Source: Limnobacter sp. 130 (GTDB taxonomy: Bacteria; Pseudomonadota; Gammaproteobacteria; Burkholderiales; Burkholderiaceae_B). From it: 64,000 nt of DNA. Each line of letters starts with the position of its first letter. Positions within the stretch are counted from its first letter, which is position 1. Position numbers and translations under genes: made by a program. The notes beneath the pieces are model-generated. The model was not told where the DNA came from and made no database searches. It was given only the letters and a program-made list of their open reading frames with translations. The DNA lies in contig NZ_LR732333.1 of NCBI RefSeq assembly GCF_902506325.1, positions 124,001 through 188,000 on the forward strand, in the 5' to 3' direction. Positions 34,023 to 50,383 of the stretch are shown piece after piece.

Positions 34023-34646
34023 ATGGAAAAGAGTAAACCCGGCAAAGCCGCCACACCGCCACTGAAAGTACTGCTGGTTGACGAGGAACCAGGCCGTGCT
34101 GCCATACTGGAACGCGCCTTGCTAGATGCTGGTTATGTGTTGGTGTCCCGCCTTAGTTCAGCCGATCGGTTGGCTGAACACGTGGCGGTGTCTCAACCCG
34201 ACATCGTGATTGTGGACATCGACTCACCCGATCGCGATTGCCTGGAAAACATGGCGGTTTTGTCGCGAAGCAATCCCAAGCCTGTGATCATGTTTTCTGA
34301 TGAAGACAATGAGGACACGATCGCCAGCGCGATCAAGGCTGGTGTAAGTGCCTACGTGGCCGACGGCATGAACCCGGATCGGGTTCGCCCCATTGTGCAG
34401 GTGGCCGTGGCGCGTTTTCGTGAATTTCAGGCGTTGAGAAACGAGTTGCAGAAAACCCGTGATCAGCTGGCGGACCGCAAGTTGATTGACAAAGCCAAAG
34501 GCCTGTTGATGAAGCACCGCAAATTCAATGAAGACGAGGCCTACCACGCCATGCGAAAGCTTGCCATGGAGCGCAACCAGCGCCTGGTAGACACAGCCCG
34601 CAATGTGATTGAGGTGTTTGAAATGTTGGGCGGAGGTGGTTTGTAA
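34023..34646 (+). CDS. nasT: ANTAR-domain antitermination response regulator NasT
   Basis: 207 aa. Residues about 15-135 form a receiver-like domain (KVLLVDEEPGR, VIVDID) and about 145-205 an ANTAR RNA-binding domain, whose KAKGLLMKHRKFNEDEAYHAMRK helices are diagnostic. NasT binds paired hexaloop hairpins in mRNA leaders and stops terminators forming; NasS holds it inactive without nitrate. The gene overlaps nasS by one base, so the two are made together. Its predicted target, the nirB leader with two AACGGC hexaloops, is at 44558-44703. Confidence 0.93.
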   Translation: MEKSKPGKAATPPLKVLLVDEEPGRAAILERALLDAGYVLVSRLSSADRLAEHVAVSQPDIVIVDIDSPDRDCLENMAVLSRSNPKPVIMFSDEDNEDTIASAIKAGVSAYVADGMNPDRVRPIVQVAVARFREFQALRNELQKTRDQLADRKLIDKAKGLLMKHRKFNEDEAYHAMRKLAMERNQRLVDTARNVIEVFEMLGGGGL

Positions 34647-44411: not shown

Positions 44412-44443
44412 CAGCGCACCGTTCTACGCAGAATGGTGCGCTG
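44412..44443. terminator. Inverted repeat after the lipoprotein hydrolase, terminator-like without T-run
   Basis: CAGCGCACC (44412-44420) and GGTGCGCTG (44435-44443) form a perfect 9-bp stem with a 14-base loop, six bases after the stop codon. No T-run follows, so termination is doubtful. The right arm touches the putative NtrC site, and GCACC/GGTGC are NtrC-like half sites, so it may be part of the nirB enhancer. Confidence 0.45.
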
Positions 44444-44458
44444 CACTAGTTGGGTGCC
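44442..44458 (+). promoter_or_regulatory. Putative NtrC binding site upstream of nirB
   Basis: TGCACTAGTTGGGTGCC matches the NtrC consensus TGCACTA-N3-TGGTGCA fully in the left half and at 5 of 7 bases in the right. It lies about 75 bases upstream of the sigma-54 -24 element, within the usual enhancer range. A weaker site, perfect in one half only (TGGTGCA at 44507-44513), is closer to the promoter. Confidence 0.55.
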
Positions 44459-44531
44459 AGCCGCCCAGCCCAATTTCATCCCATTTCAATAAAAACAGCC
44501 TCTTTGTGGTGCAAAACCATGTCGAAATGGC

Positions 44532-44547
44532 TGGCACGACCCTTGCA
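44532..44547 (+). promoter_or_regulatory. Sigma-54 promoter of the nirB-nirD-nasA operon
   Basis: TGGCACGACCCTTGCA matches the -24/-12 consensus YTGGCACG-N4-TTGCW at every defined position, with GG and GC exactly 10 bases apart. Transcription should start near 44558, at the base of the first ANTAR hairpin. This makes the operon dependent on RpoN and an enhancer-binding activator, most likely NtrC under nitrogen limitation. Confidence 0.88.
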
Positions 44548-44557
44548 TTGATACGGG

Positions 44558-44703
44558 TGTAGGTCGTCAACGGCGGCGATCTGCAGGTGGATTGACAGGT
44601 CTCCCACGGTTGCGCAAGTGGCCAAGGGAGTTGGACAACGGCGTCCGTGCTGCTTCGTGCAGCCGGGGGCCGTTTTTTTTTTGGGTAAATTGGGATAAAT
44701 AGT
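44558..44703 (+). ncRNA. NasT-responsive two-hairpin ANTAR leader RNA of nirB
   Basis: P1: GTAGGTCGTC (44559-44568) pairs with GGCGATCTGC (44575-44584) as ten continuous pairs, three of them G-U, capped by hexaloop AACGGC (44569-44574). P2: GGAC (44633-44636) pairs with GTCC (44643-44646) around the identical hexaloop AACGGC (44637-44642). A at loop position 1 and G at position 4 are the bases known to be read by ANTAR proteins. A further stem CTCCC/GGGAG (44601-44605/44626-44630) fills the space between. P2 shares bases 44637-44646 with the 5' half of the terminator, so the two structures exclude each other. NasT binding should favour P2 and let RNA polymerase continue into nirB. Confidence 0.87.
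44637..44682 (+). terminator. Attenuating terminator in the nirB leader
   Basis: Outer stem AACGGC (44637-44642) with GCCGTT (44669-44674), inner stem CCG-t-GCTGC (44645-44653) with GCAGCCGG (44659-44666), loop TTCGT, then ten T at 44673-44682. It ends 21 bases before the nirB ATG. Its 5' arm is the P2 hexaloop and 3' arm of the ANTAR hairpin. Confidence 0.88.
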
Positions 44704-47160
44704 ATGCTGATGTCCGTCAAAAAACAGAAGCTGGTGGTAATTGGTAACGGCATGGCCGGTATCCGGGTGGTTGAAGAGCTGATCAAGCTTGCCCCTGAAT
44801 TGTATGAAATCACCGTGTTTGGCGCAGAGCCGCATCCCAATTACAACCGGATCATGCTTTCGCCAGTATTGGCTGGAGAGCAGAAGTTCGAAGAAACCAT
44901 ACTCAACGACTGGGACTGGTACACCAGCAACAACATTACCTTGCATGTGGGTCGTGAAGTCACTGAAATTGACCGCATAAAACGTGTGGTCAAATGTGCC
45001 GATGGCACGGTTGCGCCTTACGATCGTTTGCTGCTGGCCACTGGCTCCAATTCATTCATCCTTCCTGTGCCAGGTTCTACCTTGCCGGGCGTGATCGGGT
45101 ATCGCGACATTGCAGACACCGAGACCATGCTGGAAGCCGCCAAGCATTACAAAAAGGCTGTGGTCATTGGTGGTGGTTTGCTGGGGCTTGAAGCCGCCAA
45201 CGGCTTGGCCATTCAAGGCATGGATGTCAGCGTGGTGCATTTACCCACCTGGCTCATGGAGCGCCAGCTAGACCCCACCGCGGCCGGCCTGTTGCAGAAA
45301 AGCCTTGAAACCAAAGGCCTGAAATTCTTGCTGGCCAAAAACACCAAGGCCTTGCATGCGGGCCCCGATGGCCGTGTTGCCAAAATTGAGTTTGCCGACG
45401 GCGATATTCATGATGCCGATTTGGTGGTCATGGCGGTGGGTATTCGGCCGAACGACAAACTGGCCGCCACAAGTGGCTTGCTGTGTAACCGGGGTGTTGT
45501 GGTCAACGACACCATGCAAACCATCACTGATCCCAAAATTTACTCGGTGGGCGAATGTGCCAGCCACCGTGGTGTGGCCTATGGCCTGGTGGCGCCACTG
45601 TTCGATCAGGCCAAGGTGTGTGCCAACCACCTGGCCCAGTTCGGCATTGGTCGTTACGAAGGTTCGGTAACCTCCACCAAGTTGAAAGTAACCGGTGTTG
45701 ATTTGTTCTCTGCGGGTAATTTCATGGGGGGCGAAGGCTGCGAAGAATTGTTGCTCTCCGACCCCATTGGTGGCGTTTACAAAAAACTGGTGATCAAGGA
45801 AGACAAGCTGGTGGGTGCTTGCCTGTATGGCGACACGGTCGATGGCTCCTGGTATTTCAAGCTGATGCGTGAAGGCAAGGCCATCAAGGAAATTCGCGAA
45901 AAGCTGATGTTTGGCCAGAACAACATTGGCGACACTGGCCATGAAGGTCAAAGCCAGGCCAGCAAAATGGCAGACACCGATGAAGTGTGTGGTTGCAATG
46001 GTGTGTGCAAAGGCACCATTGTGCAGGCCATTAAAACCAAGGGTTTGTTCACGATTGAAGAAGTGCGCAAGCACACCAAGGCCAGTGCAAGTTGTGGTTC
46101 TTGCACCGGTTTGTGTGAACAGATTTTGATGAGCACCGCAGGTGCCGATTATTCCGCCACGCCTAAAACCAAACCCATGTGCGGCTGTACCGATCATGGT
46201 CACCAGGTTGTTCGTGATGCAATTTTCAAGCACCACCTGACCACCAAAGAAGAGGTGTTCGCCACCATGAACTGGCGCACTCCGAATGGTTGTGCAACTT
46301 GCCGCCCGGCTGTGAATTATTACCTCATCAGTTCCTGGCCTGGTGAAGCGGTGGATGATCCACAAAGCCGTTTTATCAACGAACGTGCACACGCCAATAT
46401 TCAGAAAGACAAAACCTATTCAGTGGTGCCGCGCATGTGGGGTGGCGAAACCACTGCCGCTGAATTGCGTCGCATTGCCGATGTGGTCGACAAATACAAC
46501 ATTCCCACCGTGAAAGTAACTGGTGGTCAACGTATCGATTTGCTGGGTGTGAAAAAAGAAGATTTGCAAGACGTTTGGAAAGACCTCGACATGCCCAGTG
46601 GCCATGCTTATGCCAAAGGTTTGCGCACGGTAAAAACCTGTGTGGGCAGCGAATGGTGCCGTTTTGGTACACAAGACAGCACCCAGATGGGCAAAGACCT
46701 GGAGCGTGGTTTATTCAAAATGTACGCACCCCACAAAGTAAAGCTGGCTGTGTCGGGTTGCCCGCGAAACTGTGCAGAAAGTGGCATTAAAGATGTGGGC
46801 GTGATCGGTGTCGATTCCGGTTGGGAAATCTATGTGGGTGGCAACGGTGGCATTAAAACCGAAGTGGCCCAGTTCCTGTGCCGCGTGAAAACTTCCGATG
46901 AGGTGATGTCAGTCAGTGGCGCTTTCTTGCAGTTGTACAGAAAAGAAGGCTGGTACCTGGAGCGCACGGTGCACTACCTGGAACGCGTTGGTCTGGAACA
47001 TGTGAAAGCAAAAGTAATTGATGACCTCGCCAACCGCGATGCCCTGTGGGCCGAGCTACAAGCTGCACTGGCCATTGAAGAAGACCCATGGCACAAGCCC
47101 AGGGAAGCACAGGTTGATTTGCGTCAGTTCATTCCAATCCAACTGGCGGAGGTGGTCTAA
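44704..47160 (+). CDS. nirB: Assimilatory nitrite reductase [NAD(P)H], large subunit
   Basis: 818 aa. FAD/NAD-binding domains (about 8-300; VVIGNGMAGIRVVEEL, VIGGGLLGLEAANGL), two BFD-like [2Fe-2S] modules (CGCNGVCKGT with CGSCTGLC, then CGCTDHGH with CATCRPAV), and a C-terminal sulfite/nitrite reductase domain with the [4Fe-4S]-siroheme cysteines in TCVGSEWC and SGCPRNC. It reduces nitrite to ammonium in the cytoplasm with NADH. GGGA lies eight bases before the ATG. Transcription requires the sigma-54 promoter and leader antitermination described here. Confidence 0.97.
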   Translation: MLMSVKKQKLVVIGNGMAGIRVVEELIKLAPELYEITVFGAEPHPNYNRIMLSPVLAGEQKFEETILNDWDWYTSNNITLHVGREVTEIDRIKRVVKCADGTVAPYDRLLLATGSNSFILPVPGSTLPGVIGYRDIADTETMLEAAKHYKKAVVIGGGLLGLEAANGLAIQGMDVSVVHLPTWLMERQLDPTAAGLLQKSLETKGLKFLLAKNTKALHAGPDGRVAKIEFADGDIHDADLVVMAVGIRPNDKLAATSGLLCNRGVVVNDTMQTITDPKIYSVGECASHRGVAYGLVAPLFDQAKVCANHLAQFGIGRYEGSVTSTKLKVTGVDLFSAGNFMGGEGCEELLLSDPIGGVYKKLVIKEDKLVGACLYGDTVDGSWYFKLMREGKAIKEIREKLMFGQNNIGDTGHEGQSQASKMADTDEVCGCNGVCKGTIVQAIKTKGLFTIEEVRKHTKASASCGSCTGLCEQILMSTAGADYSATPKTKPMCGCTDHGHQVVRDAIFKHHLTTKEEVFATMNWRTPNGCATCRPAVNYYLISSWPGEAVDDPQSRFINERAHANIQKDKTYSVVPRMWGGETTAAELRRIADVVDKYNIPTVKVTGGQRIDLLGVKKEDLQDVWKDLDMPSGHAYAKGLRTVKTCVGSEWCRFGTQDSTQMGKDLERGLFKMYAPHKVKLAVSGCPRNCAESGIKDVGVIGVDSGWEIYVGGNGGIKTEVAQFLCRVKTSDEVMSVSGAFLQLYRKEGWYLERTVHYLERVGLEHVKAKVIDDLANRDALWAELQAALAIEEDPWHKPREAQVDLRQFIPIQLAEVV

Positions 47161-47531
47161 TGTCGGCTTCAGAACTGATCGAACGAAAGGAAACTCAAAT
47201 GGAATGGATCGACATTTGCGCGGTGGAAGACATCCCCGTGTTGGGATCACGCATTGTGCGCCGCCCCACCGGGCAAGACATTGCAGTATTCCGCAACAGC
47301 GAAGAACAGGTGTTTGCACTGCTGGATGAATGCCCGCACAAAAAAGGCCCGCTTAGCCAGGGCATCGTGCATGGCACTACTGTTACTTGCCCCTTGCACA
47401 ACTGGCAAATTGGTTTGGCCGATGGCTGCGCGCGTGAACCCGATGAAGGTTGCACTGCCAAGTTCACAGTACAGGTGGTGGATGGCCGCGTGCACTTGAA
47501 AGCCAGTGAAGTGAAGAACCACGGTATTTAA
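47160..47531 (+). CDS. nirD: Nitrite reductase small subunit (Rieske-type)
   Basis: 123 aa if started at 47160, where the ATG overlaps the nirB stop and has GGAGG seven bases upstream; a second ATG at 47199 with AAAGGA would give 110 aa and a start closer to most NirD proteins. The Rieske [2Fe-2S] ligands are intact (ECPHKKGPLSQG and TCPLHNWQIGL), unlike the cluster-free E. coli NirD. It partners NirB and probably passes electrons or stabilises the complex. Confidence 0.93.
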   Translation: MSASELIERKETQMEWIDICAVEDIPVLGSRIVRRPTGQDIAVFRNSEEQVFALLDECPHKKGPLSQGIVHGTTVTCPLHNWQIGLADGCAREPDEGCTAKFTVQVVDGRVHLKASEVKNHGI

Positions 47532-47545
47532 AAGCGATCTCACAC

Positions 47546-50383
47546 ATGACCGAACTGCTTGCACCCATCCAGAACACCAAGACAACATGCCCGTACTGCG
47601 GCGTGGGTTGTGGTGTCGTGGTGCGCACACAGGCCGGAAAAATCATCGATGTGAAAGGCGATGAAACGCACCCGGCCAATTTGGGCAAGTTGTGCAGCAA
47701 AGGCAGCAAGCTGGCTGAAACCGCCACCGTGAACGTGTATGGCCAAGTGCGCGCAAGCCAACCCCTGTTGCGCATTCAGCGTGATCAGCAAGTGGCCCCG
47801 GCAAGCTGGGACACTGCACTTGATTTCACCGCGCGTGAATTTGCACGGTTGATTTCAACATACGGGCCGAACAGTGTCGGCTTTTACATCAGCGGGCAAT
47901 TGCTGACTGAAGACTATTACGTGTTCAACAAACTCGCGAAAGGTTTGATTGGCACCAACAACGTCGACACCAATTCTCGCCTGTGCATGAGCAGCGCGGT
48001 GAGCGGTTACAAACGCACCTTGGGTGCAGACGCACCACCTTGCAATTACGATGATTTGGCTTTGGCCGATTGCGTGTTCATTGCCGGCTCCAACATGGCC
48101 TATGCACACCCGGTGGCCTATCGCAGGCTTGAAGCCGCGCGCGCTGCCAAGCCTGGCCACAAACTGATTGTTGTGGACCCCCGCGCAACCGACACCGCGC
48201 TGATGGCTGATTTGCATTTGAAAATTCAGCCCGGCACCGACGTGATGCTGTTCAACGCCATGCTGCACGTCATGATGCAAAACGGTTGGCTGGACATGGC
48301 CTACATCAACAAATACACAGAAGGCTTCGACGCAGTGGCCAAGGGCTTGGTCGATTACACGCCCAAGCTTGCAGCCAGTGTGTGTGGAGTTCCGGAAGGC
48401 GACATTGTTACAGCCGCCACCTGGTTCGCCCAAAGCAACAGGACACTCTCCCTGTATTGCCAAGGGTTGAACCAGGCCACCACCGGAACCGACAAAAATA
48501 CAGCGTTGATTGCCCTGCATTTGGCGACAGGCCAAATTGGCAAAGAAGGTTCAGGCCCGTTTTCGCTCACGGGCCAACCCAATGCCATGGGTGGTCGCGA
48601 GGTGGGTGGCTTGTCTACATTGCTGCCAGCGCACCGCGAATTGGATAACCCCGCGCATGTGGCAGAAGTGGCCGCCTTTTGGGGGGTAAAGCAAATTAGT
48701 GCAACGCCGGGTGCCAGCGCGGTTGAAATGTTCGATCAGCTGGAGCAGGGCAAAATCAAAGCAGTGTGGGTGGCCTGCACCAACCCGGCGCATTCACTGC
48801 CCAATTCGCAAAAAGTGGCCCGCGCCTTGCAAAACGCCGAACTGGTGGTGGTGCAAGATGCCTACTTAACACCCGCCACCGTGCAATACGCCGATGTGTT
48901 GTTGCCAGCCACCACCTGGGGTGAAAAGGAAGGCACGGTCACCAACAGCGAACGGCGAATCAGCCGCGTGCGGCCCGCCATGCCTGCTTATGCAGATTCG
49001 AAAAACGACTGGCAAATTGTGGTGGAATTTGCAAAGCGCCTTGAAGTTGAATTGCAAAAACTGGGTGTTGAAAGCCCGCGCCTTGCTAACACTTCCAATG
49101 CGTTCATGCCTTACAGCAGCACTGAAGAAATTTTCAACGAGCATCGCGAAACCACGCGGGGTCGCGACCTGGACATTACCGGTTTAAGTTATGCGGTGTT
49201 GGAAGCCAACGGCCCGCAGCAATGGCCCATGCCGGAAGGGCAGCCCCAAGGCAAAGCCCGCCTGTACGAAGATGGGCTTTACCCCACAGCCACAGGCAAG
49301 GCGAAGTTTGTGTTTGCAAATTACGAGCCCGTGGCCGAGGAAGCTGATGCGCGTTTCCCATGGCGCTTGAACACAGGGCGTTTGCGCGACCAGTGGCACG
49401 GTGCCAGCCGCACCGGTACCCTGGCCGAATTTTTCTCGCATGAAGCCGAGCCCGTGATTGCCATGCACCCAGCCGATTTCAAGCGACTGAACTTGAAGCC
49501 CGATAGTTGGGTGTCGGTTAAATCGCGCCGCGCCACCATCACCTTGCGTGCGAAAGCGGATGAATCGGTTGCCCGCAACCAGGCCGCCTTGCCCATGCAC
49601 TGGGGCCCTGAATTTTTTGGCGGTAAAGCGGGTGTGGGTGGAGTCAACGCACTCACCATTGAAGCATTCGACCCGTATTCCAAGCAACCTGAACTGAAGC
49701 ATTCTGCTGTGAACATTCAACAGGTGCACTTGCCCTGGCAGGTGGTTGTGTTTGTTCACAGCGAGCACTGGCTGAGCATTTGGCAACAAGCCCGTGCCTT
49801 GTACGCTGAATTTGATGCAGCCTTGTGCGTGCCCGTGGGCCGTGAGCAAACTGGTGTGTTGTTCCGCGCAGCCAGTGCGCAAGCACCTGCGAAAGAAATT
49901 ATCGATCGCCTTCAAGCCTTGTTTGAATGTGAGGGTGGCGATGTCATGGTGTACTCCGACCCGAAAACCGATGCGCGCCGCCGCATTGGTGTGAACGTAC
50001 ACGCCACGGGCGAAGGGCAAACCGCCACACTCAGCAAAGTATTTTTGGCTGGCAATATTGAATCCGAAGGCTGGTTGCGCAACTACTTCGACCAACAACT
50101 CGATGTCATGCCTTTGCGCAGTTTTCTTCTGGCCCCGGCCAGCCAACCGCCAGGTGTGCAAACCGAGGCCGTGCGCATGGTGTGCAACTGCGTGGGGGTG
50201 TCCCAGCAAGCGATTGAGGCGGGTATTGCCATTGCCTGCGCCAAGAACCCGAATGCAGGCGAGAATGAATTGCTGTCGGGTTTACAAGGCAGCCTTAAAT
50301 GCGGCACGCAATGTGGTTCGTGTGTGCCTGAAATTCGTAAACTCATTCGCACACAAGCCAGCCTTGCTACAATGGCGCCTTAG
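47546..50383 (+). CDS. nasA: Assimilatory nitrate reductase catalytic subunit
   Basis: 945 aa. The N-terminal [4Fe-4S] motif CPYCGVGCGVVV with a later LCSKG is followed by the molybdopterin oxidoreductase domains and the MGD-binding domain (about 1-700). A C-terminal BFD-like [2Fe-2S] module holds CNCVGVSQ and CGTQCGSCVPE (about 880-940), typical of NADH- or ferredoxin-linked NasA. It reduces nitrate to nitrite in the cytoplasm and feeds NirBD. It is third in nirB-nirD-nasA with a 14-base gap. No nitrate transporter, cysG or nasB is beside it, so uptake and siroheme genes must lie elsewhere. Confidence 0.95.
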   Translation: MTELLAPIQNTKTTCPYCGVGCGVVVRTQAGKIIDVKGDETHPANLGKLCSKGSKLAETATVNVYGQVRASQPLLRIQRDQQVAPASWDTALDFTAREFARLISTYGPNSVGFYISGQLLTEDYYVFNKLAKGLIGTNNVDTNSRLCMSSAVSGYKRTLGADAPPCNYDDLALADCVFIAGSNMAYAHPVAYRRLEAARAAKPGHKLIVVDPRATDTALMADLHLKIQPGTDVMLFNAMLHVMMQNGWLDMAYINKYTEGFDAVAKGLVDYTPKLAASVCGVPEGDIVTAATWFAQSNRTLSLYCQGLNQATTGTDKNTALIALHLATGQIGKEGSGPFSLTGQPNAMGGREVGGLSTLLPAHRELDNPAHVAEVAAFWGVKQISATPGASAVEMFDQLEQGKIKAVWVACTNPAHSLPNSQKVARALQNAELVVVQDAYLTPATVQYADVLLPATTWGEKEGTVTNSERRISRVRPAMPAYADSKNDWQIVVEFAKRLEVELQKLGVESPRLANTSNAFMPYSSTEEIFNEHRETTRGRDLDITGLSYAVLEANGPQQWPMPEGQPQGKARLYEDGLYPTATGKAKFVFANYEPVAEEADARFPWRLNTGRLRDQWHGASRTGTLAEFFSHEAEPVIAMHPADFKRLNLKPDSWVSVKSRRATITLRAKADESVARNQAALPMHWGPEFFGGKAGVGGVNALTIEAFDPYSKQPELKHSAVNIQQVHLPWQVVVFVHSEHWLSIWQQARALYAEFDAALCVPVGREQTGVLFRAASAQAPAKEIIDRLQALFECEGGDVMVYSDPKTDARRRIGVNVHATGEGQTATLSKVFLAGNIESEGWLRNYFDQQLDVMPLRSFLLAPASQPPGVQTEAVRMVCNCVGVSQQAIEAGIAIACAKNPNAGENELLSGLQGSLKCGTQCGSCVPEIRKLIRTQASLATMAP

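Follow-up and report, generated by a model that had tools for sequence, protein, structure and literature searches.

The locus raises the question of which signals open nirB and the genes behind it to transcription, and what the hairpins between promoter and start codon contribute to this control. A sequence-only reading had proposed a sigma-54 promoter coupled to an ANTAR antitermination switch. The window, i.e., the whole 64,000-nucleotide stretch analysed, belongs to a Limnobacter-like genome, the closest NirB relatives (best 80 of 577 kept) being those of Limnobacter, order Burkholderiales. It is highly probable that the region before nirB is a NalA-type nitrate-responsive transcription antitermination leader. 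We infer its start site, the binding, the nitrate sensing and the switch itself; for the start of transcription, the binding of NasT and the response to nitrate, the basis is the precedent of Pseudomonas. The features are collected in the table.

Features of the nirB leader and of the associated genes (positions are those of the window)
Feature	Position	Strand	Basis or remark
NasT: receiver (Response_reg) + ANTAR domain	34023..34646	+	PF03861, 68 bits
NasS-like NMT1_2 protein, 328 aa	34646..35632	+	domain; overlaps nasT end
14-bp inverted repeat CAGCGCACC...GGTGCGCTG	44412-44443		just past the upstream CocE/NonD hydrolase gene
NtrC-like enhancer site TGCACTAGTTGGGTGCC, centre about -108	44442..44458	+	motif match only
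Sigma-54 -24/-12 promoter	44532..44547	+	perfect consensus; TGGCA-N6-TTGC in 16/16 alignment rows
P1 hairpin, 10 bp, hexaloop AACGGC at 44569-44574	44559..44584	+	fold, covariation
Single-stranded linker AGGTGGATTGACAGGT, 16 nt, after P1	44585..44600	+	same in 16/16 aligned leaders
Linker hairpin CUCCC...GGGAG	44601..44630	+	free-fold minimum
P2 hairpin GGAC-AACGGC-GTCC, 4 bp	44633..44646	+	sequence, fold, alignment
Intrinsic terminator, stem 44637-44674, U10 44673-44682	44637..44682	+	fold
nirB	44704..47160	+	TIGR02374, 920 bits
nirD-like Rieske protein	47160..47531	+	domain
Molybdopterin oxidoreductase, assimilatory nitrate reductase (nasA)	47546..50383	+	domain order and place

The promoter box TGGCACGACCCTTGCA (44532-44547), claimed earlier as a full consensus, was the sole match without mismatch to TGGCACGN4TTGCW in a pattern search of the window; with up to two mismatches, the pattern occurs at chance level (23 matches against 23.4 expected). 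The predicted transcription start, judged from the -12 box, is near 44558 and thus lies at the base of P1, not downstream of it. In the window, in L002-L007 and in three loci outside the Limnobacter clade (L020, L025 and L052), P1 begins 26-28 bases past the first base of the promoter, which puts the predicted start of the transcript at or beside P1.

Two hairpins of at least 3 bp with A1/G4 hexaloops, as expected of an ANTAR leader, are present, and their loops are identical, in agreement with the earlier description. P1 (GTAGGTCGTC-AACGGC-GGCGATCTGC) has a folding energy of -13.4 kcal/mol. The second hairpin overlaps an intrinsic terminator, as had been noted: the terminator stem starts with the first P2 loop base, and the P2 loop and 3' arm are common to both structures. 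The stem with its tail amounts to -27.3 kcal/mol, and the U-run ends 21 bases ahead of the nirB ATG. Folding of the region 44557-44690 gave a z-score of -3.6, and a fold as good was obtained in one of 200 shuffles. P2 lies outside the free-fold minimum, and forcing it costs the leader 5.7 kcal/mol; such a weaker fold is expected if a protein must hold P2, though it is no proof of this. The linker hairpin belongs to the free-fold minimum in the window and, in one form or another, in L003-L007; it is absent from that of L002.

The window, searched on both strands, has a single instance of a sigma-54 box (at most two mismatches) combined with two hairpins of 4 bp or more that carry A1/G4 hexaloops. 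Scored in the same way on promoter and hexaloop hairpins, with the terminator left out, 100 first-order Markov copies of one 64-kb strand gave three instances, none of them with a perfect promoter. The inverted repeat further upstream, retained in L002, L003 and L007 and not in L004-L006, is perhaps a terminator hairpin.

The proteins proposed for the switch are encoded about 10 kb upstream of the leader. The choice of NasT as the factor is supported by its domains and by its being the sole ANTAR match of the genome. The role of nitrate sensor assigned to NasS fits the adjoining gene: its NMT1_2 product is related to NrtA, and no signal peptide was seen in it, the sequence starting directly with the domain, as expected for a cytoplasmic NasS. 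As in the NalA type, the leader lies directly upstream of nirB in a genome having nasS and nasT, and its sigma-54 promoter is accompanied by an NtrC site, the latter being a motif match only.

Control by RpoN and NtrC, also part of the earlier proposal, is likewise supported, since the genome has one RpoN and one NtrC gene above curated cut-offs and the NtrC-like site recurs in most relatives. The motif TGCACY-N5-RSTGC was found upstream of 14 out of 17 leaders (missing in L006, L103 and G213), and in 8 of those 14 upstream regions it is placed at -108. Taken alone, it is at chance level in the window (50 matches against 55 expected at three mismatches or fewer). A half-site, GTGGTGCAAAA, occurs at 44506-44516, shortly before the -24 box; all seven aligned sequences retain its GTGCA.

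Under nitrogen limitation, NtrC at the -108 site together with sigma-54 RNA polymerase would start the transcript near 44558. If nitrate is absent, NasS would hold NasT, the terminator would form, and a leader of about 125 nt would be released. Nitrate or nitrite would make NasS free NasT; free NasT would then bind both AACGGC hexaloops and stabilise P2, which would take bases needed by the terminator, and the polymerase would read into nirBD-nasA. On this analysis, reading of nirB probably requires both a scarcity of nitrogen and the presence of nitrate.

The leader design is already known as the NalA/P11 type of Pseudomonas. There, according to a review (PMC12830290) and PMC3973561, the NalA leader has a sigma-54 start with NtrC and a terminator relieved by NasT, while NasS is the nitrate sensor; a nasT deletion strain of P. 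putida fails to grow on nitrate (PMC7261876). The rule of two hairpins with A1 and G4 in ANTAR targets is given in PMC3369931. The window shares with NalA/P11, as described, the sigma-54 promoter, NtrC, the place before nirB and, as predicted, a terminator relieved by NasT. It differs in its conserved linker and in reaching only 22 bits with P11. P11 and NalA are presumably one RNA. In the nirB locus of P. marincola (L069), P11 scores 129.7 bits right before nirB. A sigma-54 box and two A1/G4 hexaloops lie at that very position, the second loop within the terminator arm; the loops are AACGAA and AAAGGC there, unlike the AACGGC pair of the window. Nitrate-controlled ANTAR antitermination also governs the Azotobacter nas operon with NasS/NasT. 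By description, the Klebsiella nasF leader with NasR and the Paracoccus nas operon with NasS/NasT are likewise so controlled; NasR senses nitrate itself (PMC3369931).

The Rfam search of 44450-44720, suggested earlier as a check with an ANTAR family in mind, yielded three matches, all under their family cut-offs, with no family named ANTAR among them: P11 (RF00625, 22.2 bits against a gathering threshold of 70), narK RNA (RF03032, 19.1 against 43.2) and ctRNA_p42d (16.6 against 50). Being below the cut-offs of P11 and narK RNA, the leader is filed with the ANTAR nitrate leaders and not under those Rfam models. It resembles narK RNA in having a start like the -24/-12 consensus, then an AACGGC hairpin and a second A1/G4 hexaloop in the 3' part, and differs from it in spacing and linker.

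At E of at most 0.01, the narK RNA model matched 47 of 250 Burkholderiales genomes, with 48 matches in all; three genomes were above the family cut-off. In 23 of 30 loci examined out of these 48 matches (L164-L193), an automatic test found a sigma-54 box with two A1/G4 hexaloops, both loops being partly inherent in the Rfam consensus and the chosen box preceding the Rfam match in L179, L180, L182, L189 and L190. Among 21 ORFs downstream, 14 resemble the NrtA of G214 (at least 64% identity) and one more does so at 39%; one is NirB-like, one NasA-like, and four are unlike all five reference proteins. By its sequence, narK RNA looks like a sigma-54 and ANTAR leader of nitrate-uptake or assimilation genes. 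This suggests that sRNA P11 and the cis-regulatory narK RNA, kept separate in Rfam, are one kind of ANTAR leader. The matches listed included no publication linking narK RNA to ANTAR, the subscription literature being mostly outside reach.

In locus L178, from 1500 onward, a leader resembling narK RNA, with a sigma-54 box and two hexaloops, precedes a protein whose EAL match is weak (25.1 bits against a Pfam cut-off of 31.3; first 150 residues only). In P. putida, c-di-GMP inhibits NasT according to the review PMC12830290, and feedback through the EAL-like gene is conceivable.

Within Limnobacter, the leader is present in 14 of the 16 genomes searched, the own genome included; the two genomes without it are 85% and 65% complete. 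Each of the same 14 has exactly one ANTAR match, and the two incomplete leaderless ones have none. When the leader was used as a DNA query against 268 genomes of the family, it matched the 14 Limnobacter genomes, two genomes of g37 and 30 bases in G064; the last match was taken for chance. Of 399 Burkholderiales genomes, two, both of them Limnobacter, contained the linker pattern followed by GGACAA.

The alignment (A3) comprised 16 of 17 distinct leaders, 14 from Limnobacter and two from g37, with L097, one base off L007, omitted. The leaders were excised via the linker string; every supplied locus contained it, and L109 (the G064 match) was not supplied. The covariation expected of both stems was found for P1, which is conserved by pairing and not by sequence: 69 of 70 cells are paired over seven distinct blocks from Limnobacter and g37, and none of 2000 column shuffles was as good. 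The 5' arm of P1 in G214 agrees with the window in 4 of 10 bases, yet all 10 positions pair round the same loop. The P2 stem hardly varies among the aligned leaders, and hence says little on conservation by pairing. As to the loops, expected to be kept in related leaders, G214 retains both hexaloops, and G213 has lost A1 in both. Over the 16 leaders, conserved bases make up 16/16 of the linker, 10/16 of the sigma-54 box (free spacer counted) and 3/10 and 2/10 of the P1 arms.

A model (R1) was built from 12 sequences, including L108 and excluding L107. Applied to 23 loci, it found L005, L006, L107 and L108 well and L069 with E 0.024; the other nirB leaders were noise. Neither the pattern nor the narK or R1 model gave a convincing second leader in the own genome. 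There, R1 found the nirB leader with E 2.9e-24 and one further match with E 0.54, and the narK model found the nirB leader with E 0.42, its next matches having E of at least 1.4 and 13 of 14 control genomes matching too. A pattern match at C4:251072 was rejected: it shares bases with the end of cysN, a gene named by eye, and lacks a hexaloop stem.

The leader is not universal. Among the best 80 of 577 nirB loci, 13 passed the test for the promoter and two hexaloops, namely L002-L007 from the Limnobacter clade and, among the 74 loci fetched outside it, seven (L015, L020, L025, L049, L052, L069 and, doubtfully, L061). In L015, L049 and L069, P2 is GGAC-AAAGGC-GTCC within the terminator arm. The Polaromonas locus L020 has two AACGAC hairpins past its sigma-54 box, a second sigma-54 box at -47 and no T-run of five or more before nirB; L052 resembles it except for T5 runs at -127 and -77.

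The g37 genomes bear on the linker. No ANTAR match was found in either of two metagenome-assembled genomes (MAGs), G214 (97% complete) and G213 (66% complete), though G214 keeps both hexaloops. In G213, the loops are GGCGAC and GTCGGC, and P2 no longer pairs; the promoter, the P1 stem (9 of 10 pairs), the unchanged linker and a U8 run are retained. Of the 16 hexaloop and P2 3'-arm bases of G213, 7 have changed, as against none of the 22 bases in its linker and TTGGAC (Fisher p 0.0009), a comparison picked after seeing the data and made on a locus found through its linker. The G213 leader directly precedes a Glycos_trans_3N gene, with no nirB or nasA between. In G214, the leader is followed by an NrtA-like NMT1_2 protein with a leader sequence and then by a Glycos_trans_3N gene; a similar gene stands after nasA in the window. 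The G213 locus is contained in L107 and L111 (leader at about 373-529 of L111), and its P1 can, by eye, close a GCGA tetraloop.

Three other explanations of the locus were weighed. The region could be a plain sigma-54 promoter with an ordinary attenuator or some other control, the hexaloops having arisen by chance. Sigma-54 alone can serve nirB, given that in 18 of the 74 loci from outside the clade (e.g. L013, L017, L029 and L041) a sigma-54 box stands 38-63 bases ahead of nirB with no two-hexaloop leader; the antitermination layer seems absent from these loci. However, two identical A1/G4 loops, the terminator overlap, the P1 covariation and the co-occurring single ANTAR gene make this explanation extremely improbable for the window. 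Just as improbable is switching by an alternative antiterminator helix that would join the linker hairpin to the 3' arm of the terminator: with P2 forced, a long helix enclosing P2 can form in the window and L002, but it did not form in L003, L004, L005 and L007, the other leaders folded under this constraint, and it was rejected.

The terminated leader might instead be mainly a stand-alone sigma-54-dependent sRNA, with the control of nirB as a by-product. This would account for the unvarying single-stranded linker and for G213, where promoter, P1, linker and U-run outlast the A1 bases with no nirBD-nasA behind them, and it agrees with Rfam, which files the Pseudomonas homologue as sRNA P11. 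Nevertheless, the conservation of loops, P1 and terminator in the 14 Limnobacter rows and the co-occurrence of NasT fit a switch, and G213 is a single MAG found by a linker-centred match. A search for the 16-nt complement, G-U pairs allowed, gave 32 matches in seven genomes (1-7 each), seven of them the leaders themselves; the 25 others compare with 18 control matches (0-4 a genome), and no start-codon site common to several genomes was seen among the 30 of 32 matches with loci examined. An sRNA in place of the switch is therefore very unlikely, and the NalA-type antitermination leader is the reading retained.

Alongside this switch, the linker may be kept for a role other than ANTAR binding, since it persists in G213, where the hexaloops are lost, and in g37 genomes with no ANTAR match. 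Both g37 loci came from DNA matches centred on the linker, which favours linker-keeping loci and weakens the case for its conservation outside Limnobacter, represented by two genomes, one of them (G213) incomplete. The negative outcome of the search for pairing sites also speaks against an sRNA seed. The possible roles are an sRNA seed, which is the boldest, a pause site or a protein site. It is a rather doubtful yet conceivable proposal that the leader has two jobs, acting as a switch and, once released, as a nitrogen-regulated sRNA whose linker AGGUGGAUUGACAGGU pairs with RNA or binds a protein; G213 would then have kept the sRNA half, the switch half having decayed where the nitrate operon is missing.

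The present ANTAR model, as set out in PMC3369931, has a variable linker between the hairpins. The invariant linker of this leader is unaccounted for by that model and is directly testable. On comparative evidence, the analysis adds Limnobacter to the range of the NalA/NasT switch, in a simple system of one ANTAR protein and one detected leader.
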